From a virus: a DNA stretch of 64,000 nucleotides. The first letter of the stretch is position 1; each line of letters begins with the position of its first letter. The notes beneath the pieces are model-generated. The model was given only the letters and a program-made list of their open reading frames with translations, was not told where the DNA came from and did not search any database. The stretch is from positions 37,864-101,863 of the IMG/VR virus record IMGVR_UViG_3300027140_000003. The stretch is one strand, 5' to 3'. Made by a program: the position numbers and the translations under genes. This document shows, one piece after another, positions 15,711-62,044 of this stretch.

Positions 15711-15784
15711 TGGAGCGGAGTGAGAGAATCGAACTCTCAACCGAAGATTGGAAATCTGCTGTTTTACCATTAAACTAACCCCGC
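15711..15784 (-). tRNA. tRNA-Gly(UCC)
   Basis: Cloverleaf with acceptor GCGGGGT/ACTCCGC, anticodon loop TTTCCAA, T-loop TTCGATT and encoded CCA. Confidence 0.95.
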
Positions 15785-15866
15785 ATTGGGTGCAGGGTTT
15801 TCACCTGCTGCTAATCAAACCTTTCGGTGATTAATCTGCCACCTCTTTATATTCAGTGGACTTTTC
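15785..15866 (-). ncRNA. Structured 80-nt spacer, not a tRNA
   Basis: Between two tRNAs the minus strand folds into three hairpins: CCAC/GTGG, TAATC-ACC-GAAA-GGT-GATTA with a GAAA tetraloop, and GCAGG-TGAAAAC-CCTGC. The last has T-arm geometry but not the TTCRA sequence. There is no anticodon arm or CCA-bearing acceptor. It could be a processing element or a small independent RNA. Confidence 0.4.
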
Positions 15867-15940
15867 TGGCATCCCGATAGGGACTCGAACCCCAACCAAC
15901 AGTTTTGGAGACTGCTATGCTGCCATTACACCATCGAGAC
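15867..15940 (-). tRNA. tRNA-Trp(CCA)
   Basis: Anticodon loop CTCCAAA, T-arm GGGGTTCGAGTCCC, CCA encoded. The acceptor pairs with a G-U at position 1. Confidence 0.93.
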
Positions 15941-15943
15941 ATT

Positions 15944-16019
15944 TGGTGCCCACGGAGAGACTCGAACTCCCGACCTCCTGATTACTAATCAGATGCTCTA
16001 CCAACTGAGCTACGTGGGC
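15944..16019 (-). tRNA. tRNA-Thr(AGU), unusual A34
   Basis: Acceptor GCCCACG/CGTGGGC and anticodon stem TCTGA/TCAGG with loop TTAGTAA give anticodon AGU. A at position 34 is normally limited to tRNA-Arg(ACG) in bacteria. The rest is a standard Thr-like tRNA with encoded CCA. Confidence 0.9.
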
Positions 16020-16023
16020 GATT

Positions 16024-16097
16024 TGGTGGAGGATGAGAGAATCGAACTCTCAATCTCGGCTTGCAAAGCCGATGTTATCCCATTTAACTAATCCCCC
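16024..16097 (-). tRNA. tRNA-Ala(UGC)
   Basis: Anticodon stem TCGGC/GCCGA with loop TTTGCAA; acceptor GGGGGAT/ATCCTCC; CCA encoded. Confidence 0.94.
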
Positions 16098-16099
16098 AA

Positions 16100-16318
16100 T
16101 TATTTTGATCTTGGAGTAGTACAACTATCACTCCAAAGATCTTGTGCTTGTTTCTTATATTCTTCTAATTCATCAGCCATTTGCATAGTAGCTAATCTTT
16201 TTGCTTCTGACTTACTCACAACATCATCTCGTTGAAAGATTGCATTCCAACGATTATCATATTCATCTTGTGTTACACTAAATGGTCTTGGTTTACTTCC
16301 TTTGCCACCATCAGTCAT
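16100..16318 (-). CDS. Conserved small phage protein (72 aa)
   Basis: Begins MTDGGKGSKPRPFSVTQDEY, a motif (GGKGSxPRPFSV) that I recognise from many phage and bacterial hypothetical proteins. The rest is a charged helix ending in WSDSCTTPRSK. It lies inside the tRNA array and overlaps the next small gene as ATGA. Confidence 0.75.
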   Translation of the reverse strand: MTDGGKGSKPRPFSVTQDEYDNRWNAIFQRDDVVSKSEAKRLATMQMADELEEYKKQAQDLWSDSCTTPRSK

Positions 16319-16443
16319 CTTCCTTGTCCCCTATATTTCTTGTGAGTCTTTTTAGATTTATTTAAGGTGCTTGTTTTACTTCCATTCTGGGAAGTTTTCT
16401 TAACAACTCTTTGATGCTTACTAACACTGCCTTTACCTGCCAT
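16315..16443 (-). CDS. Very basic peptide (42 aa)
   Basis: The frame MAGKGSVSKHQRVVKKTSQN continues Lys/Ser/Thr rich and ends HKKYRGQGR. It has no membrane helix. GGAGATAAC precedes the ATG. An RNA- or DNA-binding peptide is plausible given its place among tRNA genes. Confidence 0.6.
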   Translation of the reverse strand: MAGKGSVSKHQRVVKKTSQNGSKTSTLNKSKKTHKKYRGQGR

Positions 16444-16462
16444 GTTATCTCCTTTTATATAT

Positions 16463-16537
16463 TGGCTCCGAAGGGTGGGATCGAACCACCGACCAATTGA
16501 TTAACAGTCAACTGCACTACCGCTGTGCTACTTCGGA
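16463..16537 (-). tRNA. tRNA-Asn(GUU)
   Basis: Acceptor TCCGAAG/CTTCGGA, anticodon loop CTGTTAA, T-arm GGTGGTTCGATCCCACC, CCA encoded. Confidence 0.94.
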
Positions 16538-16545
16538 ATAAACTT

Positions 16546-16619
16546 TGGTGCCCCATGAGAGAATCGAACTCCCGTCCTCGGATTACAAAACCGATGTTCT
16601 ACCATTTAACTAATAGGGC
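16546..16619 (-). tRNA. tRNA-Thr(UGU)
   Basis: Anticodon loop TTTGTAA in stem TCGGT/TCCGA; acceptor GCCCTAT/ATGGGGC; CCA encoded. Second Thr isoacceptor. Confidence 0.93.
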
Positions 16620-16629
16620 TATTATATAT

Positions 16630-16706
<77 letters not shown>

Positions 16707-16713
16707 ATAAAAC

Positions 16714-16788
16714 TGGTGGTGATGGTTGGATTCGAGCCAACGACCTACTGCGTATGAAGCAGTTGCACTACCACTGTGCTACATCACC
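16714..16788 (-). tRNA. tRNA with CAU anticodon (Met or Ile2), first copy
   Basis: Acceptor GGTGATG/CATCACC is fully paired and the anticodon loop is TTCATAC. Lack of a 1-72 mismatch argues against initiator. Elongator Met or lysidine-modified Ile(CAU) cannot be separated by eye. Confidence 0.92.
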
Positions 16789-16794
16789 GAAATT

Positions 16795-16877
16795 TGGTGC
16801 CCCAAGCGAGACTCGAACTCGCACACCGAAGTACTGGCTTCTAAGACCAGCGTGTCTACCAATTCCACCATCGGGGC
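16795..16877 (-). tRNA. tRNA-Leu(UAG)
   Basis: Class II tRNA with long variable arm (TACTTCGGTG); anticodon stem CTGGT/GCCAG, loop CTTAGAA; acceptor GCCCCGA/TTGGGGC; CCA encoded. Confidence 0.94.
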
Positions 16878-17243
16878 TAACATTGTTGAAAGTACTGTTG
16901 TATGTTTAAGAGTCGGATAATAAAGACTCTCCTAATCGCATCGTTCACGTAGCGTCAGCAAGCTACTATTTCCTAGATATCGGGCTGACTTGATTAGGAT
17001 GGTGATCTTCCATAACAGTTTGGATTGCTTATTCTTTCGCACACACTTTCAACAATGCCCTCTGTCCCTACACAGAGAACCTTGTGTCTTGCTAATGTTG
17101 GACGACGATCCTCAGGTCTTGACATCCGTATGCGAAGTCCACCATCACTCGCATATTTTTAATGATGGGACTTACACCCACCTCGCAGAAGTGTGGATAA
17201 CAGAATAGGGATTATCTGTCATAGCCATTGCGGGACTAATTTC
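16878..17243 (-). ncRNA. Large structured non-coding spacer I in the tRNA array (about 365 nt)
   Basis: No credible reading frame. On the minus strand CCTAATC (about 16992-16998) pairs with GATTAGG (about 16931-16937), enclosing hairpin GTAGC/GCTAC whose loop TTGCTGAC can pair with GTCAGC near the 5' side, a possible pseudoknot. Other visible hairpins include AGAGTC/GACTCT near 16910-16931, CTCTGT/ACAGAG near 17080, and TATGCGA/TCGCATA near 17132-17156. Such density of pairing suggests a functional RNA rather than junk. Confidence 0.5.
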
Positions 17244-17317
17244 TGGTTGCGGATGATGGACTCGAACCACCAACTGCAGCGTATGAGACTGCTGAGATAC
17301 CTTTTCTCTAATCCGCT
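17244..17317 (-). tRNA. tRNA with CAU anticodon, A1-A72 mismatch, second copy
   Basis: Anticodon stem GCAGT/GCTGC with loop CTCATAC; acceptor GCGGAT/ATCCGC with an unpaired first position (A against A). A 1-72 mismatch is an initiator feature, but the three G-C pairs of initiator anticodon stems are absent, so identity is open. Confidence 0.88.
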
Positions 17318-17318
17318 A

Positions 17319-17678
17319 TTAACCTGCATTTCTCGTAATAAAATTCATTCGCATCTTACGAGAATCAAAAAACTTTTCTACTACACGTTTGACCACACTT
17401 GGATCAAACTCTTTACAACTAAACACATCTAGGTATATATGTCTATCGTGATCAATAAAATGTCCAGTGATAGATGATGTAGTAATCAACTGCATCAAAC
17501 TATACCCTTCTTTATCAGGATCTCCTGGACAAAGAAATTCAATAATTGGCTCACCATGAGCAACCATATCAATTTCCTTCACCAATGTCTTGACAAAATT
17601 ATAAATGTTTTGCTTATCTTTGATCGAATCAACATCACATTCAGAACAATCAAGCATTAAGTGATAACCCCAATACAT
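17319..17678 (-). CDS. S-adenosylmethionine decarboxylase-like protein
   Basis: A 119-residue protein with YWGYHLMLDCSECD at the start, SLMQLITTSSITGHFIDHDR in the middle (about residues 60-79) and LDVFSCKEFD after it. These match the proenzyme core of bacterial SpeD, in which the chain is cut before a Ser that becomes the pyruvoyl cofactor and where H and C residues are catalytic. The canonical ESH is replaced by a TSSI-type sequence as in phage SpeD-like proteins I recall from cyanophages. The product would feed spermidine synthesis. It is located inside the tRNA array. Confidence 0.75.
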   Translation of the reverse strand: MYWGYHLMLDCSECDVDSIKDKQNIYNFVKTLVKEIDMVAHGEPIIEFLCPGDPDKEGYSLMQLITTSSITGHFIDHDRHIYLDVFSCKEFDPSVVKRVVEKFFDSRKMRMNFITRNAG

Positions 17679-17696
17679 ATTTTCCTTTCACTAACT

Positions 17697-17771
17697 TGGC
17701 GACTCGTGGGAGAATCGAACTCCCATGATCGGATAGACAATCCGACGTAATGACCATTATACGAACGAGCC
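17697..17771 (-). tRNA. tRNA-Asp(GUC)
   Basis: Acceptor GGCTCGT/ACGAGTC, anticodon stem TCGGA/TCCGA with loop TTGTCTA, CCA encoded. Confidence 0.94.
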
Positions 17772-17779
17772 AAATAATT

Positions 17780-17867
17780 TGGTGGGTGCTCTCCGATTCG
17801 AACAGAGAAGGCACTAAGACAAGAGATTTACAGTCTCCCCCCGATACCATTACGGGACTAAGCACCC
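17780..17867 (-). tRNA. tRNA-Tyr(GUA)
   Basis: Class II tRNA with variable arm after anticodon stem GGAGA/TCTCT, loop CTGTAAA; acceptor GGGTGCT/AGCACCC; CCA encoded. Confidence 0.94.
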
Positions 17868-18223
17868 ATGATATTAGTTTTGCTGACGCACTATTTGCTA
17901 TGCTCAACGGAATTAGCTGCAGCATTTACCGTTTATGTACATAGTTACTCAGGCATGATCAAGCCCATGGCTTACATCAGCAAAACTAATACCACATTTA
18001 ATTGCACTGGGATGTTTGGCAACAACTACCACTCGGTAGCTAACCACGTCATCGTCTGACGATTGGTTCCCATCCACATTACGTTCCAACTAACTCCAGC
18101 GTGACCACCGTATCCGTCCATAGACTTCGTTTCCATCTTTCCTGATACATGACGCACCCATCTCCGTCGAGACAGCCAATGCTCATGCATCCTACTGGTT
18201 TGGTAACCCAATGCAATTAAATC
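17868..18223 (-). ncRNA. Large structured non-coding spacer II in the tRNA array (about 355 nt)
   Basis: No credible reading frame. Two domains are closed by long helices: ATTAGTTTTGCTGA (about 17874-17887) pairs perfectly with TCAGCAAAACTAAT (about 17977-17990), and TAATTGCACTGGG (about 17999-18011) pairs with CCCAATGCAATTA (about 18207-18219) with one wobble. Inside the second domain are CTACC/GGTAG, AACCA/TGGTT enclosing CGTC/GACG, and GGATG/CATCC. Long-range closing helices around a branched interior are typical of large ornate RNAs such as GOLLD and ROOL, which occur next to phage tRNAs. Confidence 0.6.
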
Positions 18224-18298
18224 TGGTACACGATAGGAGAATCGAACTCCTCTTCCTGCCGTGAAAGGGCAGTGTCCTAACCGATAGACGAATCGTGC
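18224..18298 (-). tRNA. tRNA-Glu(UUC)
   Basis: Anticodon stem CTGCC/GGCAG, loop CTTTCAC; acceptor GCACGAT/ATCGTGT; CCA encoded. Directly follows a promoter. Confidence 0.94.
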
Positions 18299-18317
18299 AT
18301 TTCAATCAAGAACATTA

Positions 18318-18346
18318 ATTATACATGATACTTGAATTAAAGTAAA
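18318..18346 (-). promoter_or_regulatory. Sigma70-type promoter inside the tRNA array
   Basis: TTTACT (18341-18346), 17 bp, TATAAT (18318-18323), reading tRNA-Glu, spacer II and following genes. It splits the array into at least two transcription units. Confidence 0.85.
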
Positions 18347-18368
18347 GCAATATTTTATTGCAACATCT

Positions 18369-18445
18369 TGGAGTGAGTGACAGGACTCGAACCTGCATGA
18401 AACGGATTTGCAATCCGTCGCCTAACCATTCAGCAGCACACTCAC
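18369..18445 (-). tRNA. tRNA-Cys(GCA)
   Basis: Acceptor GTGAGTG/CACTCAC, anticodon stem ACGGA/TCCGT with loop TTGCAAA, CCA encoded. Confidence 0.93.
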
Positions 18446-18451
18446 ATATTC

Positions 18452-18530
18452 TGGTACCCCTGCTCAGATTCGAACTGAGAACAACTTCTCCTTTTGAGAG
18501 AGACGACTTTACCAATTTGTCCACAAGGGC
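18452..18530 (-). tRNA. tRNA-Leu(CAA), short variable arm
   Basis: Anticodon stem TCTCT/GGAGA with loop CTCAAAA gives CAA. The variable region AGTTGTT is only about seven bases, far shorter than a normal class II Leu tRNA. Acceptor GCCCTTG/CAGGGGT; CCA encoded. Shifting the stem would remove U33, so CAA is preferred. Confidence 0.8.
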
Positions 18531-18532
18531 AT

Positions 18533-18607
18533 TGGTGGGCTGAGAGAGAATTGAACTCTCACTCAATCGATTATGAGTCGACTGCTTTACCATTAAGCTA
18601 TCAGCCC
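18533..18607 (-). tRNA. tRNA with CAU anticodon, third copy
   Basis: Acceptor GGGCTGA/TCAGCCC, anticodon stem GTCGA/TCGAT, loop CTCATAA; T-loop TTCAATT; CCA encoded. Confidence 0.92.
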
Positions 18608-18613
18608 AACAAC

Positions 18614-18688
18614 TGGCACCCCCACGAGGAATCGAACCTCGATTCGCAGTTTAGAAGACTGCTGCATTATCCATTATACTATGGGGAT
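18614..18688 (-). tRNA. tRNA-Arg(UCU)
   Basis: Anticodon stem GCAGT/ACTGC with loop CTTCTAA; acceptor ATCCCCA/TGGGGGT; CCA encoded. Confidence 0.93.
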
Positions 18689-18693
18689 AAACT

Positions 18694-18776
18694 TGGTGCG
18701 AATGGTCGGACTCGAACCGACAAGCCGAAGCGGGAGATTTTAAGTCTCCTGTGTTTACCAATTTCACCACACTCGC
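18694..18776 (-). tRNA. tRNA-Leu(UAA)
   Basis: Class II; anticodon stem GGAGA/TCTCC, loop CTTAAAA; acceptor GCGAGTG/CATTCGC; CCA encoded. Confidence 0.94.
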
Positions 18777-18784
18777 AAAAACTT

Positions 18785-18874
18785 TGGCGGAAGATGTGAG
18801 AGTCGAACTCACTCAGCTGCTTTCACAACTGTACGGATTAGCAATCCGCTGCATTACCATCCTGCCCATCTTCC
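18785..18874 (-). tRNA. tRNA-Ser(GCU)
   Basis: Class II with a long variable arm; anticodon stem GCGGA/TCCGT, loop TTGCTAA; acceptor GGAAGAT/ATCTTCC; CCA encoded. Confidence 0.93.
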
Positions 18875-18881
18875 AAAACTT

Positions 18882-18957
18882 TGGCACCCAATGAAGGAAT
18901 CGAACCTCCACTTCTGCGTTCGTAGCACAGCGTGATCATCCATTTCACCAATCGGGT
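18882..18957 (-). tRNA. tRNA-Arg(ACG)
   Basis: Anticodon stem CTGTG/CGCAG, loop CTACGAA; acceptor ACCCGAT/ATTGGGT; CCA encoded. A34 here would be read by TadA as in bacteria. Confidence 0.92.
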
Positions 18958-18962
18958 AAATT

Positions 18963-19052
18963 TGGCGGAAGCGGTGAGATTCGAACTCACGGACCATTTC
19001 TGATCGTCTGTTTTCAAGACAGGTGCAATAAACCAGACTCTGCCACACTTCC
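18963..19052 (-). tRNA. tRNA-Ser(UGA)
   Basis: Class II; anticodon loop CTTGAAA in stem CTGT/ACAG; acceptor GGAAGTG/CGCTTCC; CCA encoded. Confidence 0.92.
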
Positions 19053-19057
19053 ATATT

Positions 19058-19133
19058 TGGTGGGACGTGAGAGACTCGAACTCCCGACAGCCTGCGTGTA
19101 AGGCAGGAACTCTACCAACTGAGTTAACGTCCC
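19058..19133 (-). tRNA. tRNA-Val(UAC)
   Basis: Anticodon stem CCTGC/GCAGG, loop CTTACAC; acceptor GGGACGT/ACGTCCC; CCA encoded. Confidence 0.95.
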
Positions 19134-19141
19134 ATAATAAC

Positions 19142-19216
19142 TGGAGCAGGATATCGGGTTCGAACCGATGACATTTTCGTTGGCAACGAAACATTCTACC
19201 ACTGAATTAATCCTGC
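19142..19216 (-). tRNA. tRNA-Gly(GCC)
   Basis: Anticodon stem TTTCG/CGAAA, loop TTGCCAA; acceptor GCAGGAT/ATCCTGC; CCA encoded. Confidence 0.94.
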
Positions 19217-19223
19217 ATAAACT

Positions 19224-19298
19224 TGGTACCCGATAGTGGTAACGATCCACTCACCTATCGCTTATCAAGCGATTGCTCTACCACTGAGCTAATCGGGT
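19224..19298 (-). tRNA. tRNA-Ile(GAU), odd T-loop
   Basis: Anticodon stem ATCGC/GCGAT, loop TTGATAA; acceptor ACCCGAT/ATCGGGT. The T-loop reads ATCGTTA instead of TTCRANY, which departs from the rest of the array. Confidence 0.88.
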
Positions 19299-19299
19299 A

Positions 19300-19375
19300 T
19301 GGTGCTGCCTAGTAGAATCGAACTACTTTCCGAGGTTCTTCAGACCCCTGCTATGACCACATCAGCTAAAGCAGC
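19300..19375 (-). tRNA. tRNA-Phe(GAA)
   Basis: Anticodon stem GGGGT/ACCTC, loop CTGAAGA; acceptor GCTGCTT/AGGCAGC; CCA encoded. Confidence 0.93.
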
Positions 19376-19377
19376 AT

Positions 19378-19453
19378 TGGGGTGTTTAATGAGGATTGAA
19401 CTCATACTATCTCGGTCACAGCGAGATGTGCAGACCACTACACTATAAACACC
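19378..19453 (-). tRNA. tRNA-His(GUG) with G-1
   Basis: Anticodon stem TCTCG/CGAGA, loop CTGTGAC; acceptor GTGTTTA/TAAACAC with an extra 5' G opposite discriminator C73, the tRNA-His identity element. CCA encoded. Confidence 0.94.
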
Positions 19454-19463
19454 ATAGTAACTT

Positions 19464-19537
19464 TGGTAGGAGCACAGAGAATTGAACTCTGATTTGCTGG
19501 TTAAAAGCCAGCTACTTTACCATTAAGTTATACTCCC
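19464..19537 (-). tRNA. tRNA-Lys(UUU)
   Basis: Anticodon stem GCTGG/CCAGC, loop CTTTTAA; acceptor GGGAGTA/TGCTCCT; CCA encoded. Confidence 0.94.
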
Positions 19538-19540
19538 ATA

Positions 19541-19621
19541 TTAAAACACACTACATCCAGTCCACGGACACTCTTGCGAATGCGACTCATACTTACAGAC
19601 CCACTGCAATATGTTTTAATA
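19541..19621 (-). ncRNA. Structured 80-nt spacer closed by TTAAAACA/TGTTTTAA
   Basis: TTAAAACA (about 19542-19549) and TGTTTTAA (about 19612-19619) form an 8-bp closing helix. GTCC/GGAC and a GCATTCGC element lie inside. No tRNA arms. It may be an RNA processing structure between tRNA-Gln and tRNA-Lys. Confidence 0.4.
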
Positions 19622-19695
19622 TGGCACCCGAAATAAGAATCGAACTTATACTAACAGAGTCAAAGTCTGCTGTGCTACCACTACACCATTCGGGA
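19622..19695 (-). tRNA. tRNA-Gln(UUG)
   Basis: Anticodon stem GCAGA/TCTGT, loop CTTTGAC; acceptor TCCCGAA/TTCGGGT with T1-T72 mismatch; CCA encoded. First tRNA of the array in transcription order. Confidence 0.92.
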
Positions 19696-52215: not shown

Positions 52216-54645
52216 TTATTTGAAATTAGGCAAGTGTACTGGATAGCCTGTCATTTCGACACCACTACCTTTTCTCTTAGCAATAGTTCCCTTCTGACGT
52301 GCGCCAGATGTAGAACCTGCTGGACGACCACGACCACGTTTCTCTGCAGCTGGTTTAGCTGGCTTGTCTTCATCGTCGTAACCTTTTTTGTCTGCTTCGG
52401 CTTCACCCTTATAATACTCAGTACCATAACCACGACCACTCACTTTACGTACTGGTAAGTCAGCCATTTTAACCTCATCAAGAGATTCTACAAACTCTTT
52501 ATATGTTTTCATGTTAGTTATTACCTCTCCGTTATCGTCAAATTGTTCCACTTCTTCTTTATGACTCTTCATACCCTTATTCTTCATATACCATGCAAGA
52601 GCAAAAGGATTATCAATTTCTTTATGCTTCTTCATTGCTTTAACAGTACCCTCAAATCCTGGAGGTGCTTTCTCGTCAACTTGTTCGACTTCTTCAGTTC
52701 TAGTTCTGCGACCTGCGAAATGATGAATACCTCTGTTCTTCAATTCAGAACGAGATGCTTCATATTCATATCGGTTTTTCACTTCACTAGGTCTTGTCTG
52801 ACCAAGGGTTTTAACTTTTTTATCGAGAGTTGATGTTGCTTGTTTTTTGGCAATCTTATTGGTTGCCGTGTACAACCCCGCATCTCTTTTATCACTAGTA
52901 TCGCCAGACTTTAAATTCTTTCTAACATATGACTTTAAAGTTTTCTGATCTAATTCATCGATCTGTTCAACTTCTTCGCAGGACACCTTATTAGTTGGAT
53001 GACCATTGATTGGTTTCTTAGTTGCTTTGTATGCTTTATTCTCAGGTGTTCCTTTGATATACTTCTTATCTGGAACTGGAGCAACTGGAGCTTGTTCATC
53101 AACAACGTCTTCTTTGATTTTACTCTTTGCAGCAATAGCTTGTTTAGCAAGTTCACGTGCACGACTCATTGGTGATTGAGTAGTGCCATCTGAGTTTTTA
53201 ACAGGTTTAGTCTTTGTATATGGACCATCAAATGGAACACTATTCTTAGAAGAACCACCACCAATCTCGTCACCTTTACGACGATAAGCAGATGCTGGCT
53301 TTTGGTAGTAACCTTCTTCCATTTCAACTTCTTCTTTGTAGATAGTTCCAATATGTTTTGCTTTAATCTTTTGTAGAGAGTTGCGACCACTAGCGTTCAT
53401 AGTGTGGTTAACATCAAAGCCACCACTATGAGCATAAATCTCAATACCATCAAGATTGTCACGATGGGTTTTAACTTTTTCTTTAGCATACTTCACAGCA
53501 TCTTCTTTAGTTTTGAATGGTGCTGCTTCCACCACTTGTTCAACTGACTCATCAACATAAACTGCACGAGTTCTTTCTCCAGGATGATACGCTTTAGTGC
53601 GTTTACCAGTAATACTCTTTCCGTGATCGTCAGCTTCTTTAGAAGTTTTGAAACCTTTTTTATGCGCAGTCATATTACCATAAACATCCATTGAAGATGA
53701 ATGATATGTACCGTGAACTGTATTCTTTTTGACCTTAGCATGATTCCAAGTTTGACTAGCTTCTTCTATTTCAACTTCTTCGTTGGTTTCTTTCTTACCT
53801 GTCAAGAAGTTCTTAAAGTTTTTCAAATCTGATTTGATAGATGGTTTCTTACCCATATCTTTTAAATAACTCTTATCGGCAATGTCAGTGTTCTTTGCTG
53901 GAACTGATTCATCAAAGTGTTTGTAATCAACAGTAGTTTTCTTACTGCCTGATGTTCTGTGAGAAACAAAATGAACTTTGTCATCTTCACGTGTTACATG
54001 AACTTGATTACCAGTTTCATCTTTATACATAGCCTTCGAATGTTCACCACTTGGTCGTAAACCCTTAACAATCTTTTGGTGTTCTGGATGTAGAGGATAA
54101 GAAATATCTTTGCCGTGATGAACAGTCATCATCTTACCCCAAGAATAATCTTTCTTGCTTACTGTGGCTTCTTCTAACTCAACTTCTTCTTTTAATTTCG
54201 CTGAGATTTTATGAACTTTATATCCTTTGTCAGAGAAATGTTTTCTTGCAGCACGCTCTGCATGCTTTGGAGTTGCTGCCAATATAGATAGTGCTTTCTT
54301 TATAACTTCACGCTTCTCACCATCAGCAGGAGTTCCAGTATTATCAGAAACATGAGCAACTACAGTATGACGTCTAGAGTAATCATCTTCTTCGTCAATA
54401 GTTTCTTCAGAAACTAAAATATACTTGTTATTTGATGGGTTCAACTTAGGTTTTTGTCCAGGTGCTGCAGCAGCTTTCGCATCTTGATAAGTTGCAAACA
54501 CTCTAGCTTCGATAATATCGTCAGCTACTTCTGTTTCTTCAGGAACACAGTTAGGAACTTTTCTTCCATTCTTATCCTTTAAACCAACTGCTTTATAGCC
54601 TTTCCAGCAAGCACTGGCTAAATCTGCAAATTTCTTTTTTGCCAT
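52216..54645 (-). CDS. Modular internal-protein-like protein (809 aa) with EEVExxE linkers
   Basis: Begins CWKGYKAVGLKDKNGRKVPN, a motif found in cyanophage proteins. It is a chain of basic modules separated by acidic linkers: EEVELEE, EEVEIEE, EEVEMEE, EEVEQID, EEVEQVD, EEVEQFD. Modules include GTVKAMKKHKEIDNPFALAW and a C-terminal RGRGRPAGS AT-hook. An internal ATG at 52512 begins MKTYKEFVESLDEVK, like a T4 capsid-targeting leader, preceded by GGAGAGGT, so a 98-residue product may be made separately. Probably a head-core or packaged DNA-binding protein. Confidence 0.65.
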   Translation of the reverse strand: MAKKKFADLASACWKGYKAVGLKDKNGRKVPNCVPEETEVADDIIEARVFATYQDAKAAAAPGQKPKLNPSNNKYILVSEETIDEEDDYSRRHTVVAHVSDNTGTPADGEKREVIKKALSILAATPKHAERAARKHFSDKGYKVHKISAKLKEEVELEEATVSKKDYSWGKMMTVHHGKDISYPLHPEHQKIVKGLRPSGEHSKAMYKDETGNQVHVTREDDKVHFVSHRTSGSKKTTVDYKHFDESVPAKNTDIADKSYLKDMGKKPSIKSDLKNFKNFLTGKKETNEEVEIEEASQTWNHAKVKKNTVHGTYHSSSMDVYGNMTAHKKGFKTSKEADDHGKSITGKRTKAYHPGERTRAVYVDESVEQVVEAAPFKTKEDAVKYAKEKVKTHRDNLDGIEIYAHSGGFDVNHTMNASGRNSLQKIKAKHIGTIYKEEVEMEEGYYQKPASAYRRKGDEIGGGSSKNSVPFDGPYTKTKPVKNSDGTTQSPMSRARELAKQAIAAKSKIKEDVVDEQAPVAPVPDKKYIKGTPENKAYKATKKPINGHPTNKVSCEEVEQIDELDQKTLKSYVRKNLKSGDTSDKRDAGLYTATNKIAKKQATSTLDKKVKTLGQTRPSEVKNRYEYEASRSELKNRGIHHFAGRRTRTEEVEQVDEKAPPGFEGTVKAMKKHKEIDNPFALAWYMKNKGMKSHKEEVEQFDDNGEVITNMKTYKEFVESLDEVKMADLPVRKVSGRGYGTEYYKGEAEADKKGYDDEDKPAKPAAEKRGRGRPAGSTSGARQKGTIAKRKGSGVEMTGYPVHLPNFK

Positions 54646-54648
54646 TTA

Positions 54649-55095
54649 TTATTCTCCAATTTTCTTTAAGCTGGAACGTATCATCCAACCATGTTTCTTG
54701 TGAGCATCCAATCTTCCAGCAATAAAATCAGCAAAACCCTGCTCTTTGTCTTTCGATAATAGATCGAACAGTTTATTTAGGCTCTCGATGGTTTTATTGT
54801 TGGCTTCTTGTAAATCTTGCAGCATTTCAGTTACATTACTAGCGTTATTATCATTATCGATAGTTGTAACTTTATACATTTCTTCTATATTCTTTGGAGC
54901 ATACTCATCAAGCGCACGCATCTCTTCTGCCATTGGATCAACTGCTCCATAAATTTCTTCATAAAGATTGCCAAAAAATTCATGATACTGTGGAAAGAAC
55001 ATCCCTTCCAAGTTCCAATGATAAGATTGTGCCTTAAAATACATTAAGAATGTATTTGCTAAGCAAATTTTCGCAGTAACTAAAGTTTCATTCAT
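54649..55095 (-). CDS. Dps-like ferritin
   Basis: A 148-residue Dps/ferritin-fold protein. YHWNLEGMFFPQYHEFFGNL (about residues 25-44) has the His and acid ligands of the Dps inter-subunit iron site, followed by DPMAEEMRALDEYAP (about 53-67). The basic C-terminus (KKHGWMIRSSLKKIGE) may bind DNA. Dps protects DNA by removing iron and peroxide. It lies among the leader-bearing genes but has no leader. Confidence 0.85.
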   Translation of the reverse strand: MNETLVTAKICLANTFLMYFKAQSYHWNLEGMFFPQYHEFFGNLYEEIYGAVDPMAEEMRALDEYAPKNIEEMYKVTTIDNDNNASNVTEMLQDLQEANNKTIESLNKLFDLLSKDKEQGFADFIAGRLDAHKKHGWMIRSSLKKIGE

Positions 55096-55096
55096 A

Positions 55097-55594
55097 TTAA
55101 CAATTCCATTTTCTTAATGCCAATGCTTTACGAGTTGGCTCGCCATTTGGCTTCTTCATTGGTCCTTCTACGCCAGACATTCTGGCACAGAAAGACTTGC
55201 GACGATTGGCAGCTTTGCTACCAGCTTTTAATTTTGATGGTGGTGTTGTTACAGGTGCTTTAAGATTGCCACCCTCTGTTCTGTTATAATGATCTCGACC
55301 CTTTTGTGTCAAGCCACCAGTTGAAGATTTAAATCCTTTTGCATCAACAGCTGCTTCTTTAACAGTTAAAGATTTTTCATGGTGTTCATCTGCCTTTTCA
55401 GCATGCTTGTCTGCTGATGCCGAACGACCCTTCGACTCATGCCACTCGGACATAGCATCATGATGATCCGCCATGTGTGCATGAAATGACTTCATATCAC
55501 CTTTAGATTCAGCGTCATTGGCTTTTGATAAATGCTCTTCTGCCTCATCATGTTTGGCATTATCTTCTGTAAGGTAATCTTTAAAACGCAACAT
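55097..55594 (-). CDS. Leader-bearing protein with DUF6321 domain (165 aa)
   Basis: Start at MLRFKDYLTE (55594, AAGGA at 7 nt). Residues 1-10 fit the T4 capsid-targeting leader. Then a His-rich helical region (AHMADHHDAMSEWHESKGRS) and the C-terminal domain GLTQKGRDHYNRTEGGNLKA through SFCARMSGVEGP and ALALRKWNC, which I recognise as DUF6321. Basic and Cys/His rich; DNA binding inside the head is plausible. Confidence 0.75.
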   Translation of the reverse strand: MLRFKDYLTEDNAKHDEAEEHLSKANDAESKGDMKSFHAHMADHHDAMSEWHESKGRSASADKHAEKADEHHEKSLTVKEAAVDAKGFKSSTGGLTQKGRDHYNRTEGGNLKAPVTTPPSKLKAGSKAANRRKSFCARMSGVEGPMKKPNGEPTRKALALRKWNC

Positions 55595-57461
55595 TTCCAG
55601 ATCCTTTAGTATATTTTGTATGTGATAATCTTGCTTTCTCAACAGCACGAATACGTGGAACAAGTTTCATTGCTACACGACCGATAACTTGTTTGCGTCT
55701 TTGAATAACTCTTTCTACACGCTCTTTCTCTCCAACTGAAAGTTTGTTATAGTCACGACCACGGAGTAGACGTTTCTTCATTAACTTAATTGCAAGACGA
55801 CGTGCACGTTTGTTTGTAGTCTTAGTGGTGGCACGAGTTCTTAATGCGATGGATGCTTTACGTTCACGCTTAGCCTTAGATTTTGCAAAACGAACTCTTG
55901 CACGCATACGTTCTGTTCTTGAAAGAACTTCCAGAATTGCTTGCTCTTGCATTGTGCAAGCACATTCTTCATCGTCATATTCTTCGCCAGTATCTGGATC
56001 GATAATACCAAACTCATCATCTTCATACTCATCGATGAATTCATCATCTGGTGTAGTATTAATAATGTGATCGATTTCTTCATCAGTAAGATCTAATTCT
56101 TTTTCTAACACATCTCTAGTGTGTTCACATCCTTCTTCGCCATGCTTTACGTTGTGTACTGGACAAATACCAGTATCTTCCCATTCTTCATCATGTGGTT
56201 CATCGCCAGCATGATTAACTTTGCTCACATCAACTGGAGCTACTTCACCCAATTGTTGTTTAATTTTTTGTTTGCGTAAAGTTTCAGATGCTCCTGGTTC
56301 AACTAAACTATGTCCAGGTTTGCAGTGATTCTCTTTTACATCTTTCTTCTGTTCTTTTTCTTTTTTCTCACGTTCCTGTCTTTCTTGTTTCGCCATGCGA
56401 GACATTCTCTTGATGAAAGAAGGTTTATTATAATATGGAGTTGCTTCATCCAAAGAAGTTTCTTCTTGAGTAAGTTTCTGTGGAATTAAATTTGTGTCAT
56501 ATTGAATACCAACTTGGTTAGCCAGTTGTAACATCTTATTAACAATGTTCAATGCTTCTGGATTCAAAGTCTTGGATTTGATTCTGCGTAGTGCAGTATT
56601 AACAAGCAACTCAGCGTTTGCAGTTGCCTCAACTTTATCCACACCAAGCATAGTTGCGATTACTCGAGCAACTTTAATCTTATCGTTGGTTTTTAAAGTC
56701 TTATCTGTTAAGTCTTCGTTCATTTCTTTTTCTTCCGTTGGTATTACGTCTTGTATCCATTTAGAAACTAATTTGCCACTAGCTTCTTTAAGTAGTAAAT
56801 GGTTTGAGCCACGTTTAACTACTGCTAATTTTTCTCCACTACATTCAACGATATCTCCGACATTAAAAATTTCACCACGGAAATATTGTTCACGTACAGT
56901 ATCTTTGACCAAATTAAGCTGCTCTTTAATTGGTTCTAAACCCATCGTAATACGGACATCGTTCATCAAACGACGACCATCTAACTCACGAACAGAACTT
57001 GGCAACTTTTTCTTAAACTCTTCAAAAATTCCTTTAGTAGCAAAAGATTTCATCTTTGAAGAATTTACATCTGGGTCTTTATCTAAAGTAGAAATAATCT
57101 GAATGGAACTTGATTCTTTAACAATTTTTTTCAAGCTGGCTGATTGTTCGCTGCCGACAACCAATACAACATGTTTATACTTCTGCGACAAATCTTTAAT
57201 CGTTTCCGATAAAGATGTGATACTTTTAAAAGAAGTATTTGGGAACATTAAATTTAGATAATGTTCTTTCTTATCTTCTTGGATAATACTGTTCTTAGAT
57301 GGGGATGTATAGATTACGTGGTCAGAATTTTTTTGTTCTGCCAGTTTTTTGACTGTCTTGACTAGTAGTTCGTGACCGATTGTAGGAGGGTTAAACTCGC
57401 TAACTGCACAAACAATAGTACTGGACGGTAGTTCTTTGATTAGTTGTCTGTAATCTTTCAT
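55581..57461 (-). CDS. Cytidylyltransferase-like N-terminus fused to basic tail (626 aa)
   Basis: Leader MKDYRQLIKE, then a nucleotidylyltransferase domain with VSEFNPPTIGHELLV (HxGH-type site, about residues 21-35) and SPSKNSI (about 53-59). A KOW-like segment GEIFNVGDIVECSGEKLAVV follows (about 195-215). The C-terminal half has Glu-rich linkers (EEWEDTG...DDEECACTMQEQ) and a very basic helical tail (RMRARVRFAKSKAKRERKAS). Could carry NMN/CTP chemistry or act structurally; the fusion is notable. Confidence 0.7.
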   Translation of the reverse strand: MKDYRQLIKELPSSTIVCAVSEFNPPTIGHELLVKTVKKLAEQKNSDHVIYTSPSKNSIIQEDKKEHYLNLMFPNTSFKSITSLSETIKDLSQKYKHVVLVVGSEQSASLKKIVKESSSIQIISTLDKDPDVNSSKMKSFATKGIFEEFKKKLPSSVRELDGRRLMNDVRITMGLEPIKEQLNLVKDTVREQYFRGEIFNVGDIVECSGEKLAVVKRGSNHLLLKEASGKLVSKWIQDVIPTEEKEMNEDLTDKTLKTNDKIKVARVIATMLGVDKVEATANAELLVNTALRRIKSKTLNPEALNIVNKMLQLANQVGIQYDTNLIPQKLTQEETSLDEATPYYNKPSFIKRMSRMAKQERQEREKKEKEQKKDVKENHCKPGHSLVEPGASETLRKQKIKQQLGEVAPVDVSKVNHAGDEPHDEEWEDTGICPVHNVKHGEEGCEHTRDVLEKELDLTDEEIDHIINTTPDDEFIDEYEDDEFGIIDPDTGEEYDDEECACTMQEQAILEVLSRTERMRARVRFAKSKAKRERKASIALRTRATTKTTNKRARRLAIKLMKKRLLRGRDYNKLSVGEKERVERVIQRRKQVIGRVAMKLVPRIRAVEKARLSHTKYTKGSGNVAF

Positions 57462-57504
57462 TTAATCCATCTATAAAGTAATTTCTATTCATTTATTTAG
57501 GCAA

Positions 57505-57735
57505 TTATGCCACGCTAATTAACGCTTTTGCTGCTGCAACGATCCAACGACAGGCTACCTCGTCTGTGGCTAACTCCTGTTGGGCACGAATTTCAGCGAT
57601 TTCATTGACCAAATACTCATATTCTTCTTTGGATAGCTGTCCCTGTTCATAATTTTCACGAATAACCAATAACTCGTTCGCCAATGCTGCTGCTGGACCA
57701 CCCATTCCTGCTGCTTCTCTTAATTGTTCTAGCAT
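57505..57735 (-). CDS. Conserved helical phage protein (76 aa)
   Basis: QQELATDEVACRWIVAAAKA in the C-terminal half is conserved in aquatic phages. N-terminal region is helical. CTAAATAA follows its stop. Unknown. Confidence 0.7.
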   Translation of the reverse strand: MLEQLREAAGMGGPAAALANELLVIRENYEQGQLSKEEYEYLVNEIAEIRAQQELATDEVACRWIVAAAKALISVA

Positions 57736-57917
57736 CTTGGACCCCTTAAAAATTCAACAATACCTTTGGCAGTTTTCATATGTCGTGCTTTATATGCACG
57801 ATATTCATTTACCTCATCCATAATTGGATTCTTAATTTCTTCTAATCCTATAGATTCATATCCTGGATGATAAGGTGCTTCTGCTACTAATCTATCTTCA
57901 GTTGTAAATGTAGTCAT
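57729..57917 (-). CDS. Hypothetical protein (62 aa)
   Basis: Start at MTTFTTEDRLVAEAPYHPGY (57917) because the stop of the lipoprotein gene overlaps it. Ends GIVEFLRGPRC. Unknown. Confidence 0.65.
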   Translation of the reverse strand: MTTFTTEDRLVAEAPYHPGYESIGLEEIKNPIMDEVNEYRAYKARHMKTAKGIVEFLRGPRC

Positions 57918-58264
57918 TATCTTCCTTTCCAAGCATCTACTATTACATCGATTCTAACTTTATTTGTTTTAACAACAGATTCGCAGAATACTTTGTTCTT
58001 GGATTCTCCTGCTTTCTTGATAGCTTCTTGCAATTTTCCAATAGCTTCTGCTTGTGGGTCAGATCTTAAAACAGCATAAACTTTTAATCTCTCGATATAC
58101 TCGTCTGCGTTTTGGAACATTAACTGATTACCACATTCTAATTTATCAACTGCTATTTTGGTATCAACTAAACGACCAAACATTTCTGGGTCGTGTGGTC
58201 TTGGTAGGATAACAGAACATGCAGATAAAGAAACTACGGCAAGAATCAGTATTAACTTTTTCAT
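57917..58264 (-). CDS. Lipoprotein (115 aa)
   Basis: Signal and lipobox LSAC (MKKLILILAVVSLSAC, Cys at residue 16). Mature part is helical with paired Cys (ECGNQLMFQNADEY, FCESVV). ATGA overlap with the upstream gene. Periplasmic; possibly part of the envelope or superinfection functions. Confidence 0.7.
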   Translation of the reverse strand: MKKLILILAVVSLSACSVILPRPHDPEMFGRLVDTKIAVDKLECGNQLMFQNADEYIERLKVYAVLRSDPQAEAIGKLQEAIKKAGESKNKVFCESVVKTNKVRIDVIVDAWKGR

Positions 58265-59307
58265 ACAGCTTTACCTGCACTCTTTAATGAACTTAATGGA
58301 TCAGATTGAGAGTCGAACTTATGGGCTTGAGAAGCAAACTTCTTACCATTGTGATAGAAGTGAACAGAGCCACCACTGGATTTAACTGTAATATTCTTAT
58401 GGTCTTTAAGGATATGTTCGTGGTCTTCGCTTGGCTTACTTGTATGGTGTTGAACACCCTTAGCAGTTTGATATGTTGTATGCTTAATAAAACTGTGCCC
58501 CTTTTCTTCTGCAGGAGTCTTATGTGCATGTAGAACTTCACGAATATGTTTAACTACATGGTCGTGGTTATTGTTGTCTAAGTGGTGCTGCAACTCAGCA
58601 GCATGATCGTGAGCAACTTTATGTAAAAGTTCTTTGTTGCGTTTCTTAATATCATCATGCAACTTAGGATCTGCTTTTGCAATTTCTTTACGCTGGTCTT
58701 TATTCTTACCTTTTAATTTAGGATGAGCAGCAAGTATTGCGTCTTGATGATCTTTATAATGCTGTCTGGCTTTTGAACCACCAGATTCCATACCAAGACT
58801 TGAAGACGGAATGTTTTTACTGGACTTATCGCTGACTTTTAAACTTACGCCATGATGATGTTCTTTACCTGTCTTTGGATGCTTGGTAGTTACATAAACG
58901 TCAGAAGAATCTTCTTTCTGTGTTGCTTTGTGACCAGTTACCTTTTCTGTATCTCCAGGTTTTGAAGTCCAATGCACTGCTGAAATCTTATGCCCTTTGT
59001 GAGTAGAATCGATATGTGCCTTAATATGATTGGCAGCACTCTCTGCATTTTTAGCGATCTTATCATAATCTTTAGGGTGAATTTGTTTCTTTAATCTCTC
59101 GTGTGCTTGCTCAGGTGTTTCATCGTTTTCATTCTTGTGTTTCTCTAGATGCTTACCACCATTTAAATGTTTGCCGACTAATAGTTCGTGCAACACACCT
59201 TTAGTGTTATTGGAAACACCACCCTCTTTGGAAGCATCATCAGCTGCTTCGATAAGCAATTCTTCGTAGTATTGTTCTTCTGCTAAGAACGATTTAAAAT
59301 TTTTCAT
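58261..59307 (-). CDS. Leader-bearing His/Lys-rich protein, possible nuclease (348 aa)
   Basis: Leader MKNFKSFLAE. The middle reads KEDSSDVYVTTKHPKTGKEH then GVSLKVSDKSSKNIPSSSLG, an arrangement (D...SLK) that suggests a PD-(D/E)xK-type nuclease core. The rest is strongly His/Lys rich (HKVAHDHAAELQHHL, RKEIAKADPKLHDDIKKRNK). DNA binding and metal binding are likely. Nuclease activity is tentative. Confidence 0.6.
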   Translation of the reverse strand: MKNFKSFLAEEQYYEELLIEAADDASKEGGVSNNTKGVLHELLVGKHLNGGKHLEKHKNENDETPEQAHERLKKQIHPKDYDKIAKNAESAANHIKAHIDSTHKGHKISAVHWTSKPGDTEKVTGHKATQKEDSSDVYVTTKHPKTGKEHHHGVSLKVSDKSSKNIPSSSLGMESGGSKARQHYKDHQDAILAAHPKLKGKNKDQRKEIAKADPKLHDDIKKRNKELLHKVAHDHAAELQHHLDNNNHDHVVKHIREVLHAHKTPAEEKGHSFIKHTTYQTAKGVQHHTSKPSEDHEHILKDHKNITVKSSGGSVHFYHNGKKFASQAHKFDSQSDPLSSLKSAGKAV

Positions 59308-59921
59308 TACTTTACACCCATATGTTTACGTAAGTCGTGATACAATTCTGTTTTATGTTCTGGTTTCATCTGTGACGATAGATGAGATTCAAACTTTTTC
59401 TGTTCACCAGCTGCAGCGTGACCACGAAGTTTAGTTCCAGAAATACCTTCAGTTCCTTTTGCATTTGGATCACGTTTACCTGCATTGTGGAACTTTATAC
59501 TCTTGAAATTGTAATGTCCATGTGGACCTTCTTTTCCATTATACTTTTTAATCAATTCATGCATTGGTTTACGATCATCGCCACCAGCAAAGTGTAAATG
59601 AGTAACACCTTTTTTGTGCAACTCAGCAGCATGATGAAGAACAGTAGGATGTTCTTTATCAGCTACCTTAACATTGGTTCCAGGAAATGCTCTCTCTGCA
59701 TGTTTCTTTTTAACATCAGGTGGTAATGGATTAGATCCGTCTTTAGTTGCATGCGAACCTGATAATACCAATGTATGTTCTGCATTATGTTTCTTGGCAG
59801 TATCATGCATATGGGTTACGAGTTTCTCATGACCAGCAGTTGGAGGATTCATTCGACCAAAAGCAAGAACATGATGAACGTCTTTTTCTGATTCTACAAT
59901 ATAAGATTTAAATGTCTTCAT
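59307..59921 (-). CDS. Leader-bearing nucleotidylyltransferase-like protein (204 aa)
   Basis: Leader MKTFKSYIVE, then LAFGRMNPPTAGHEKLVTHM (HxGH site, about residues 19-38), LSGSHATKDGSNPLPPDVK and HFAGGDDRKPMHELIKKY. This is the alpha/beta phosphodiesterase-like cytidylyl/NMN adenylyltransferase fold. It is basic and His-rich. Second such enzyme in the leader-bearing group. Start of its downstream neighbour overlaps. Confidence 0.75.
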   Translation of the reverse strand: MKTFKSYIVESEKDVHHVLAFGRMNPPTAGHEKLVTHMHDTAKKHNAEHTLVLSGSHATKDGSNPLPPDVKKKHAERAFPGTNVKVADKEHPTVLHHAAELHKKGVTHLHFAGGDDRKPMHELIKKYNGKEGPHGHYNFKSIKFHNAGKRDPNAKGTEGISGTKLRGHAAAGEQKKFESHLSSQMKPEHKTELYHDLRKHMGVK

Positions 59922-61120
59922 TTTCTTGGCTTTAATAAGTTGGCTTTACTGAATTCTGCACGATTAACAATTTTAGATGGTTCTTGTTTACCTTTGTGCG
60001 TATAATTTATAACATATCCCTCAGGATCTGTTTTCTTATCTCCAATATGATGCTCAAGACCGCCAGTATGCTGGTTTAAATTCTTAACTAAAAGGTTTTT
60101 ACCTTGCTGTAAATGCTGATGCATTTTAAATAGATTCTCATAATGCTCTTTATTTTTCTCAACATGCGCAGCGTGACCAGAACCAAGATTACGCTGAGCA
60201 GTTTGTCCCTTCTCAGACTTTAGTTTAGACGCTTTCTTTTCATAAACATCCTGAATATGTTTAATGAATCCTTTTGCGTTTGGTTTTGTATCTTTGCGAA
60301 CTGTTTGATTGATGTAAGTTCCCAAATGTCCAGCATCACCTTTGTGTTCTGGATGGATCGCACCATACATCTTATCGCCGTGTTTATCATGAATATCTTT
60401 TGCAGCATTCATGTGGCTTTGGAATCTTTTCTGATCTGCTTGAGTATATTTAACTTTGCTAGTATCATGCTCGGCACCAGCAAGATGCACATCTTTGTGT
60501 TGACCAAAACTTTTCATATCAGGATGAGGAGTTGCTTTCATCGAAGCAAAATCTTTACCCTCATATTTTTGGTGAACAACTAACCCAAATTTAGATTGGG
60601 CTGTTTTCTTGGCTTCATCGCCATGCGCAGTATACTTAATTGTATTTGGTGTATAAGAAGCAGTTCCCTTCTTCTCATCATATTTAACATCACCCTCAGA
60701 GTGCATAACGTCACCCTGATATACACCTTGCTTAGGTGCAACCTTTGGTAGATGTTTTAGAGCATGCTTTAATTTTTCTGCGAGACCTGGAGCATGACCA
60801 TGGTTCTTGTCAATGTCCTTAGCAGTATAGTTGATTTTTGGGTTTTTATTGAACGCTGACTTGGAAGCAACAAAGAATTTTCCAGTTTCTGGATGCTTTC
60901 CAAAAACCAATGATGGCGATCCGTCATATTTCATGGTCAGATCGCTGGATTGTTTCCCAGCTTTAATGTGTTCATGTCCATGGTTTAGTGCACCAAGAGC
61001 ATGTTCGAACCCTGAAGAACCATGGAATAGAGGGCGATCCTCTACATGATGGATGTGCTTCAGTTTCTCTTCTTCGGTTTCTTCTTTAAGGAATGTTTGG
61101 AACGACTTCATTTTACCCAT
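59918..61120 (-). CDS. Leader-bearing covalent nucleotidyltransferase (ligase/capping fold)
   Basis: MGKMKSFQTFLKE carries the leader from residue 4. Motif I is MKYDGSPSLVFG (nucleophile Lys 64), motif III-like is VYQGDVMHSEG (about 133-143), motif IV-like is DPEGYVINY, and a late KIVNRAEFSKANL supplies motif V-like Lys. This order is that of DNA/RNA ligases and mRNA capping enzymes. 400 residues, highly His/Lys rich. Either a head-packaged ligase or a repair enzyme; substrate unknown. Confidence 0.75.
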   Translation of the reverse strand: MGKMKSFQTFLKEETEEEKLKHIHHVEDRPLFHGSSGFEHALGALNHGHEHIKAGKQSSDLTMKYDGSPSLVFGKHPETGKFFVASKSAFNKNPKINYTAKDIDKNHGHAPGLAEKLKHALKHLPKVAPKQGVYQGDVMHSEGDVKYDEKKGTASYTPNTIKYTAHGDEAKKTAQSKFGLVVHQKYEGKDFASMKATPHPDMKSFGQHKDVHLAGAEHDTSKVKYTQADQKRFQSHMNAAKDIHDKHGDKMYGAIHPEHKGDAGHLGTYINQTVRKDTKPNAKGFIKHIQDVYEKKASKLKSEKGQTAQRNLGSGHAAHVEKNKEHYENLFKMHQHLQQGKNLLVKNLNQHTGGLEHHIGDKKTDPEGYVINYTHKGKQEPSKIVNRAEFSKANLLKPRK

Positions 61121-61240: not shown

Positions 61241-62044
61241 CTATGAAGCGAATGCTTTAAGTAGAGACTGATTGTCAGTTAAGCTGTAAGCTGTTCTATT
61301 AATAGTGACGTTATTTTGGGATGTAATGGGTGCTAGGTTATAGAGAGATTTTCTTAGGTTTGAAAATTCTAAAGTCATAACGAACTGGTAATCGCCACCA
61401 CCCTTTGGCTGGCATCTAGTTCTGATTCTAGCTGATGTGCAGTTTGAGAAATCTTCGATCTTCTTGGTTAGCTTGGCATTCAATTTTAACGGATCGAATT
61501 TATTCATTAAATAGAACCCATGAGTACCTACATTGATGTAGTAGGTTTTCTTCTTATTGTAGTAGTCACAGATAGCCTTAGCTGGGACTGTTATGTGGAC
61601 CTCGTTCTCACCCTTATAACTTTGTATATCAATTTCATACGCTTTGCGTTTGTCTTTAATACCACCAGTAAGTATTTTTCTACCAGCTTGGTCATTCTGT
61701 AGAATAGGAACTTTACTTCTCCACTTCTCACCAGCAGTACCCGATACATTCATTTCTTGGAGAAGGTTGTATTGAGTTGCGATATCTCGCATCATGATTT
61801 TCTCAGGATCGCCTTTAAGGTCTTCAGCGAATGCCCACTTACCGTTGTAGTATTTTAATACTAGAGATCCTGCTGCAGTTGGGGATATCTTTAACTCACA
61901 TCCTGTTGATGTTGATATACTTTTAGTGACGATAGAAAGATCTGGTTTATCGTGCGATGCGCCAGCTGGATCACCTACAGTGATTTTGTATTCTTTCAAT
62001 ACGTTATGTGCGTTTCTCTCGTAATCGAAACCTTTTTGTGCCAT
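61241..62044 (-). CDS. Nuclease-like protein (PD-(D/E)xK type suspected), 267 aa
   Basis: Start at MAQKGFDYERNAHNVLKEY (62044; GGGGTT before). HDKPDLSIVTK then TGCELKISPTAAGSLVLKYY (D...ELK, about residues 36-60) resembles a PD-(D/E)xK core with Lys in the catalytic place. The C-terminal half has FYLMNKFDPLKLN and a Cys/Arg-rich ARIRTRCQPKGGG. The longer frame starting at a TTG is rejected. Confidence 0.6.
   Translation of the reverse strand: MAQKGFDYERNAHNVLKEYKITVGDPAGASHDKPDLSIVTKSISTSTGCELKISPTAAGSLVLKYYNGKWAFAEDLKGDPEKIMMRDIATQYNLLQEMNVSGTAGEKWRSKVPILQNDQAGRKILTGGIKDKRKAYEIDIQSYKGENEVHITVPAKAICDYYNKKKTYYINVGTHGFYLMNKFDPLKLNAKLTKKIEDFSNCTSARIRTRCQPKGGGDYQFVMTLEFSNLRKSLYNLAPITSQNNVTINRTAYSLTDNQSLLKAFAS

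Follow-up and report, generated by a model that had tools for sequence, protein, structure and literature searches.

A cassette of leader-bearing proteins

The window analysed here, 64,000 nucleotides of viral DNA, corresponds to bases 37864-101863 of the 101,863-bp IMG/VR record IMGVR_UViG_3300027140_000003, which is classed as 'linear'. Its genes include T4-like replication and tail genes, and the homologues of its proteins are found mostly in cyanophages (Kyanoviridae), and also in Pelagibacter and Methylophilales phages and in Stenotrophomonas phage DLP_6; no close relative was matched by megablast in INPHARED. The source is a T4-like virus of bacteria. Our subject is a cassette of genes at 52216-61120 of the window, where an earlier note on this DNA had recognised six matching decapeptides within 8.9 kb, similar to the N-terminus of the T4 internal head proteins. 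All six are present on the minus strand, five of them at the start of an open reading frame (ORF) or three codons inside it, and the sixth internal to a long ORF.

The DUF6267 protein (400 aa, 59918..61120, minus strand, as for all cassette features below) matches Pfam DUF6267 (E = 2.3e-96) and phrog_455, and carries the leader MKSFQTFLKE at residues 4-13 (61082-61111, starting at 61111). Its KYDG motif is invariant and its EGxV and K-x-V stretches are conserved, which suggests a candidate nucleotidyltransferase of the ligase/capping type. The earlier note had proposed a KxDG ligase or capping enzyme; the motif stands, and the fold finds weak matches, with RNA ligases returned by Foldseek at E 0.17-1 and no match among PDB profiles. 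The top Foldseek matches, to CorA with TM-scores near 0.12, were taken as spurious long-helix matches.

Two further proteins, cytidylyltransferase-like protein 1 (204 aa, 59307..59921; phrog_3041, E = 9.8e-49; leader MKTFKSYIVE at 59892-59921) and cytidylyltransferase-like protein 2 (626 aa, 55581..57461; phrog_3041, E = 7.8e-33; leader MKDYRQLIKE at 57432-57461), had been described as HxGH nucleotidylyltransferases. Their motifs actually read T-x-G-H, namely TAGH in protein 1 and TIGH in protein 2; the second, ISxTxxR-like motif is kept only in protein 1 (ISGTKLR) and is degenerate in protein 2. Judged by phrog_3041 and these motifs, the two belong to the cytidylyl/adenylyltransferase (PF01467-like) superfamily, with PF01467 itself below cut-off. 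No NMNAT model scored above cut-off for any homologue and the PDB profile matches to NMNAT were weak (E about 0.2); an NMNAT identity, which the curated models did not reach, was set aside. A phmmer search with the short cytidylyltransferase matched only designed ankyrin-type proteins and was discarded.

The 348-aa protein (58261..59307; leader MKNFKSFLAE at 59278-59307) has no PHROG or NCBIfam match and no Pfam match above cut-off. Its best Foldseek matches, weak at a probability of 0.60, include two structures of the restriction endonuclease HinP1I, and the nuclease suggested earlier is retained here as a possible PD-(D/E)XK-like one. The DUF6321 protein (165 aa, 55097..55594, counted, like its leader MLRFKDYLTE at 55565-55594, from the ATG at 55594) is confirmed by Pfam (DUF6321, E = 1.2e-25). 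A Dps/ferritin-like protein (54649..55095; Pfam Ferritin, E = 8.3e-20) stands in the cassette without a leader, and its gene is a conserved neighbour in the related genome G001. AlphaFold2 models of the DUF6267 protein (pLDDT 83.5, residues 1-23 disordered) and of the 348-aa protein have low confidence over the leader and linker, as expected of a removable tag. Upstream of the DUF6267 gene, 61241-62044 encodes a 267-aa protein with a DKPDLS...GCELK stretch that resembles PD-(D/E)XK and with no family match above cut-off.

The ORF at 52216..54645 encodes an 809-aa low-complexity protein, matched by phrog_9737 across a short N-terminal stretch. It contains the internal decapeptide MKTYKEFVES, which begins at 52512 (residue 712) and has, instead of I/L at position 8 with E at 10, L-D-E at residues 11-13. 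GGAGAGG is located 11 nt upstream of this leader-like stretch, MKTYKEFVESLDE (52474..52512, residues 712-724), which may be an internal start for a protein of 98 aa. The copy is kept as MKSYKEFLQSLDE in G001 (160095-162437) and is therefore probably not due to chance. The same protein has six sites of the type EEVE-x-[hydrophobic]-[DE]-[ED] (residues 153, 289, 438, 557, 651 and 697), and in three of them there is a strict I/L-x-E. From this pattern we would guess at a candidate prohead protease substrate, perhaps cut at several sites; in the phages characterised by mass spectrometry (MS) the EEVE-type pattern never occurs twice within one protein.

The leader exceeds chance and is conserved in relatives

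Five protein starts in the cassette fit M-x-x-[FY]-x-x-[FYL]-[IL]-x-E. Positions 4 (F/Y) and 7 (F/Y/L) agree in all five leader proteins, and I/L at position 8 with E at position 10 is borne out in five of the six decapeptides, as had been noted, the internal copy being the one that differs. A motif modelled on the T4 leader, M[KR]x[FYW]xx[FLIYVM][ILVM]xE, matches three ORF starts and the residue-4 start of the DUF6267 protein; shuffled proteins give 0.003 matches when starts are counted and 0.05 when all positions are. The wider search for leaders that the earlier note had called for used a looser core motif, allowing any start codon within the first 40 codons and compared with 200 shuffles: the 101.9-kb contig gives 6 matches, where the shuffles average 0.26 and never exceed 2. 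The leaders are real and far above chance.

As a control, the core motif applied to the 278 ORFs of T4 picks only ipII, ipIII and 61.1. The ipII and ipIII sequences both read MKTYQEFIAE, the N-terminus that the note had given for T4 internal head proteins. Gene 61.1 (L112 18966-19130), annotated as a hypothetical protein of 54 aa, begins MKTFKEFIKE and fits the motif of the capsid targeting sequence (CTS), and its product may, from this sequence, be an unrecognised internal protein.

Conservation was counted in 80 related IMG/VR loci. The DUF6267 leader is present in 77 of 79 complete homologues, the other two carrying a one-residue variant. Among cultured phages, Methylophilales phage Melnitz and Stenotrophomonas phage DLP_6 are leader-bearing too, and the DLP_6 DUF6267 protein begins MMKFTQFLAE. 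Among 37 non-redundant homologues, positions 1, 4 (F), 7 (F/Y), 8 (L/I) and 10 (E) are fixed, with the targeting positions 4 and 7 invariant in kind in 37/37, whereas positions 2, 3, 5 and 6 are free and position 9 is mostly K. DUF6321 has the leader on all 12 complete homologues. The cytidylyltransferases, the 348-aa protein and DUF6321 show identical fixed positions among their matched homologues, counts which are conditioned on the motif; many cytidylyltransferases that the motif misses deviate only at position 7 or 8 (e.g. MKSFLDIIKE). Orthologues of cytidylyltransferase-like protein 2 in G001 and in loci L009 and L010 begin MKDYRQLIRE, and many ORFs unrelated to any in the window also begin with a leader. 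Beside the gene for the single-stranded DNA-binding protein lies a small ORF (G000:C1:26575-26799, L002; G001:C1:92295-92528) in which MKTLNSYV[ED]E, at residue 36-37, is conserved and is a candidate start.

This pattern agrees with experiments on T4 IPIII, in which, as summarised in a review, targeting depends mainly on residues 4 and 7 and processing on residues 8 and 10 (PMC9026906). The T4 capsid targeting sequence itself goes back to Mullaney and Black (1996), reviewed in the same source (PMC9026906).

Leader-bearing proteins in the virions of cultured cyanophages

Evidence from virions comes from published proteomes of purified cultured cyanophages, which are relatives of the phage studied here. 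A cytidylyltransferase or NMNAT-like protein was reported in purified virions of S-SM1 (PMC3037559), S-CREM2 (PMC10665884), S-SCSM1 (PMC9602691) and S-SZBM1 (PMC9146016). BLAST ties those of S-CREM2, S-SCSM1 and S-SZBM1 to window proteins; the S-SM1 protein is annotated as the T4-GC190 cytidyltransferase and scores above cut-off with PF01467. All four bear the leader: MKNFSSFLTE in S-CREM2, MKKFSAFLNE in S-SM1, MKSFLQFLKE in S-SCSM1 and, in S-SZBM1, the nine-residue MRFRQFIIE, which is one residue short and so was missed by the regular expression.

A scan of the whole S-CREM2 genome gave five core-motif matches, four of which were detected in virions by MS: the SAM lyase (MKDFDSFLEE; PF23780, E = 2.3e-19), the small protein ORF13 (MKDLHSFLTE), a kinase-like protein ((V/M)KRFDAFLTE) and the cytidylyltransferase. 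In S-SCSM1 (195 of 229 kb scanned) the single match was virion-detected. Pooled over three phages, 5 of 8 leader matches were MS-positive against 1.5 expected (P = 0.008), a value that is not fully blind: the core motif was set before the proteome scan, but some of the leaders were known by then. ORF12 of S-CREM2 (L109 7704-10313), a virion-detected protein annotated as Cas9 and with no Pfam match, has a leader-like LRFASFMAE/A (slash, putative cleavage position) near residue 17.

Several observations weigh against the leader as a packaging signal. The two regular-expression matches of S-SZBM1 were both absent from its virion MS data, the authors of the S-CREM2 (PMC10665884) and S-SCSM1 (PMC9602691) proteomes state that MS alone cannot exclude carry-over, and few leader-bearing proteins have MS data, so that the sample is small. 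HTVC008M has the cassette with leaders that are degenerate or lacking, and packaging is thus not universal. One of the S-SZBM1 matches, the small gp191 (L106 22312-22629), begins MKSFKSFLSE and is MS-negative.

These points bear on the reading that the enzymes reach the particle by another route (tail, neck or bound to DNA), or are abundant cytosolic contaminants of the MS samples, with the leader an inherited relic. Besides the contamination raised by the proteome authors and the negative S-SZBM1 matches, it is favoured by several cassette neighbours in S-SCSM1 that are annotated as virion proteins without a leader. However, the same enzyme was recovered in four separate proteomes, conservation in a relic would not fall on exactly residues 4, 7, 8 and 10 in families that are unrelated, and the S-SZBM1 DUF6267 homologue, which has no leader, is absent from the virion MS list. 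We consider this reading improbable.

A prohead protease in cassette-bearing relatives

A gp21-like protease, for which the earlier note had asked, was not found in the contig and is present in relatives. BLAST with head proteins of S-CREM2 and T4 as queries found no major capsid protein, prohead protease, portal, large terminase (terL) or tail sheath in the contig, and the S77 protease search gave no match in the contig alone, which is uninformative with the head module missing. The contig is therefore a fragment, and the protease not being found in it says nothing. Two cassette-bearing relatives, G001 of 174 kb and G002 of 120 kb, encode S77 prohead proteases (E = 2.5e-38 and 3.6e-32, respectively) that are 58-59% identical to the S-CREM2 virion protease over about 212 residues. 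With the head module missing and these two proteases in relatives, the lack of a protease in the contig does not count as the refutation that the earlier note had set.

The major capsid protein of G001 has L-F-E/A at the place where the propeptide is cut, matching L-T-E/A in S-CREM2, and that of T4 loses its propeptide at a site of the same type, GSFLTE/A, at residue 65. Elsewhere in the window, 27 tRNA genes are tightly arrayed on the minus strand at 15711-19695.

Proposed mechanism

Taken together, the leader is very probably a T4-type CTS carried by an enzyme cassette whose products would be packaged, cleaved and ejected. Support for targeting by such a sequence is strong. For packaging it comes from the cultured relatives, and in this phage packaging would follow by analogy with them; the earlier expectation of enzymes packaged with the DNA is supported by the leader-bearing cytidylyltransferase homologues and other leader-bearing enzymes in relatives' virions and by the conserved T4 targeting and processing residues. 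We infer cleavage at residue 10, ejection and the roles of the enzymes.

In the proposed sequence of events, the aromatic or hydrophobic residues 4 and 7 would bind the prohead core and so make the attached enzyme part of the scaffold. The S77 (gp21-like) prohead protease would then cut after [IL]-x-E at residue 10 and free the enzyme inside the head, where it would remain with the DNA until ejected into the host at infection, like the T4 internal proteins. As leader-bearing enzymes are found in the particles of cultured relatives, the DNA of this virus probably enters the cell together with a small kit of enzymes. Such a pre-made kit would comprise the two TxGH nucleotidylyltransferases, the KxDG ligase/capping-like DUF6267 protein, the nuclease-like protein and the DUF6321 protein. 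It would act before phage gene expression, and its most plausible role would be the protection or repair of nucleic acid or of cofactor pools when host defences strike at once.

A more specific proposal, which we regard as unlikely, is that of an injected first-strike repair pathway that reverses the loss of NAD+ or the cutting of RNA/DNA caused by host defences, with CTS tagging as a general route for swapping injected enzymes among T4-like phages of aquatic bacteria. The ligase/capping-like enzyme, NMNAT-like nucleotidylyltransferases and the nuclease-like protein would in that case enter with the DNA and act before any phage gene is expressed.

The motif could alternatively be an interaction helix, a cytoplasmic docking tag for a multi-enzyme complex that has no part in capsid targeting. 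The phrog_455 profile spans both DUF6267 and the cytidylyltransferase, which indicates that some phages make them as one fused protein and that they probably act jointly. However, the protease residues E10 and L/I8 are conserved as strongly as the hydrophobic ones, the leader also occurs on unrelated virion-detected S-CREM2 proteins (SAM lyase, kinase-like) encoded elsewhere, and T4 internal proteins share it; we rate a docking tag as slightly less probable still than the relic or contaminant considered above. That the leader is a by-product of the shared ancestry of one domain was rejected, since it occurs on many unrelated kinds of protein.

Comparison with known systems

That the CTS may serve T4-like phages for packaging a variety of proteins has already been suggested in a review (PMC9026906). 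T4 provides the known mechanism; what appears to be new is the enzyme cassette, the phage lineage and the link to virion enzymes that had been left unexplained. No paper in the open-access library searched combines 'capsid targeting' with cyanobacteria, and a wider search found no application of capsid targeting to cyanophages, both searches covering open-access papers and neither subscription journals nor preprint servers. The CTS reading adds to the review's suggestion an enzyme cargo and a conservation pattern that agrees with T4 mutagenesis. It offers a sequence rule that accounts for cytidylyltransferases, a SAM lyase and a kinase-like protein in cyanophage virions where contamination could not be excluded. 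In the T4-like phages of aquatic bacteria, which are abundant, this rule would allow injected enzymes to be predicted from their sequence.

The giant phages SPN3US and phiKZ resemble the proposed system in that a gp21-like protease processes many head proteins, many of which are ejected; they are of another lineage, and the relevant parts of the sources describe no T4-like decapeptide (PMC9026906, PMC7411985). The virion cytidylyltransferases of S-SM1, S-CREM2, S-SCSM1 and S-SZBM1 are of the same family as the window proteins and bear the leader, but were reported without a packaging signal, and in two of these reports contamination was left as a possibility. The T4 Alt ADP-ribosyltransferase is likewise an enzyme that is packaged in the head, has a short N-terminal propeptide at which gp21 cuts, and is ejected, according to the same review (PMC9026906), but it is a single enzyme and its N-terminus, MELITELFDE, lies outside the leader motif. 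The T4 internal proteins IPI, IPII and IPIII share with the cassette the ten-residue N-terminal leader, with key positions 4, 7, 8 and 10 and an L/I-x-E end. In T4, however, the cargo is small and basic, with IPI acting in anti-restriction, whereas here, in Kyanoviridae-like phages, a single cassette encodes several enzyme-like proteins of larger size.

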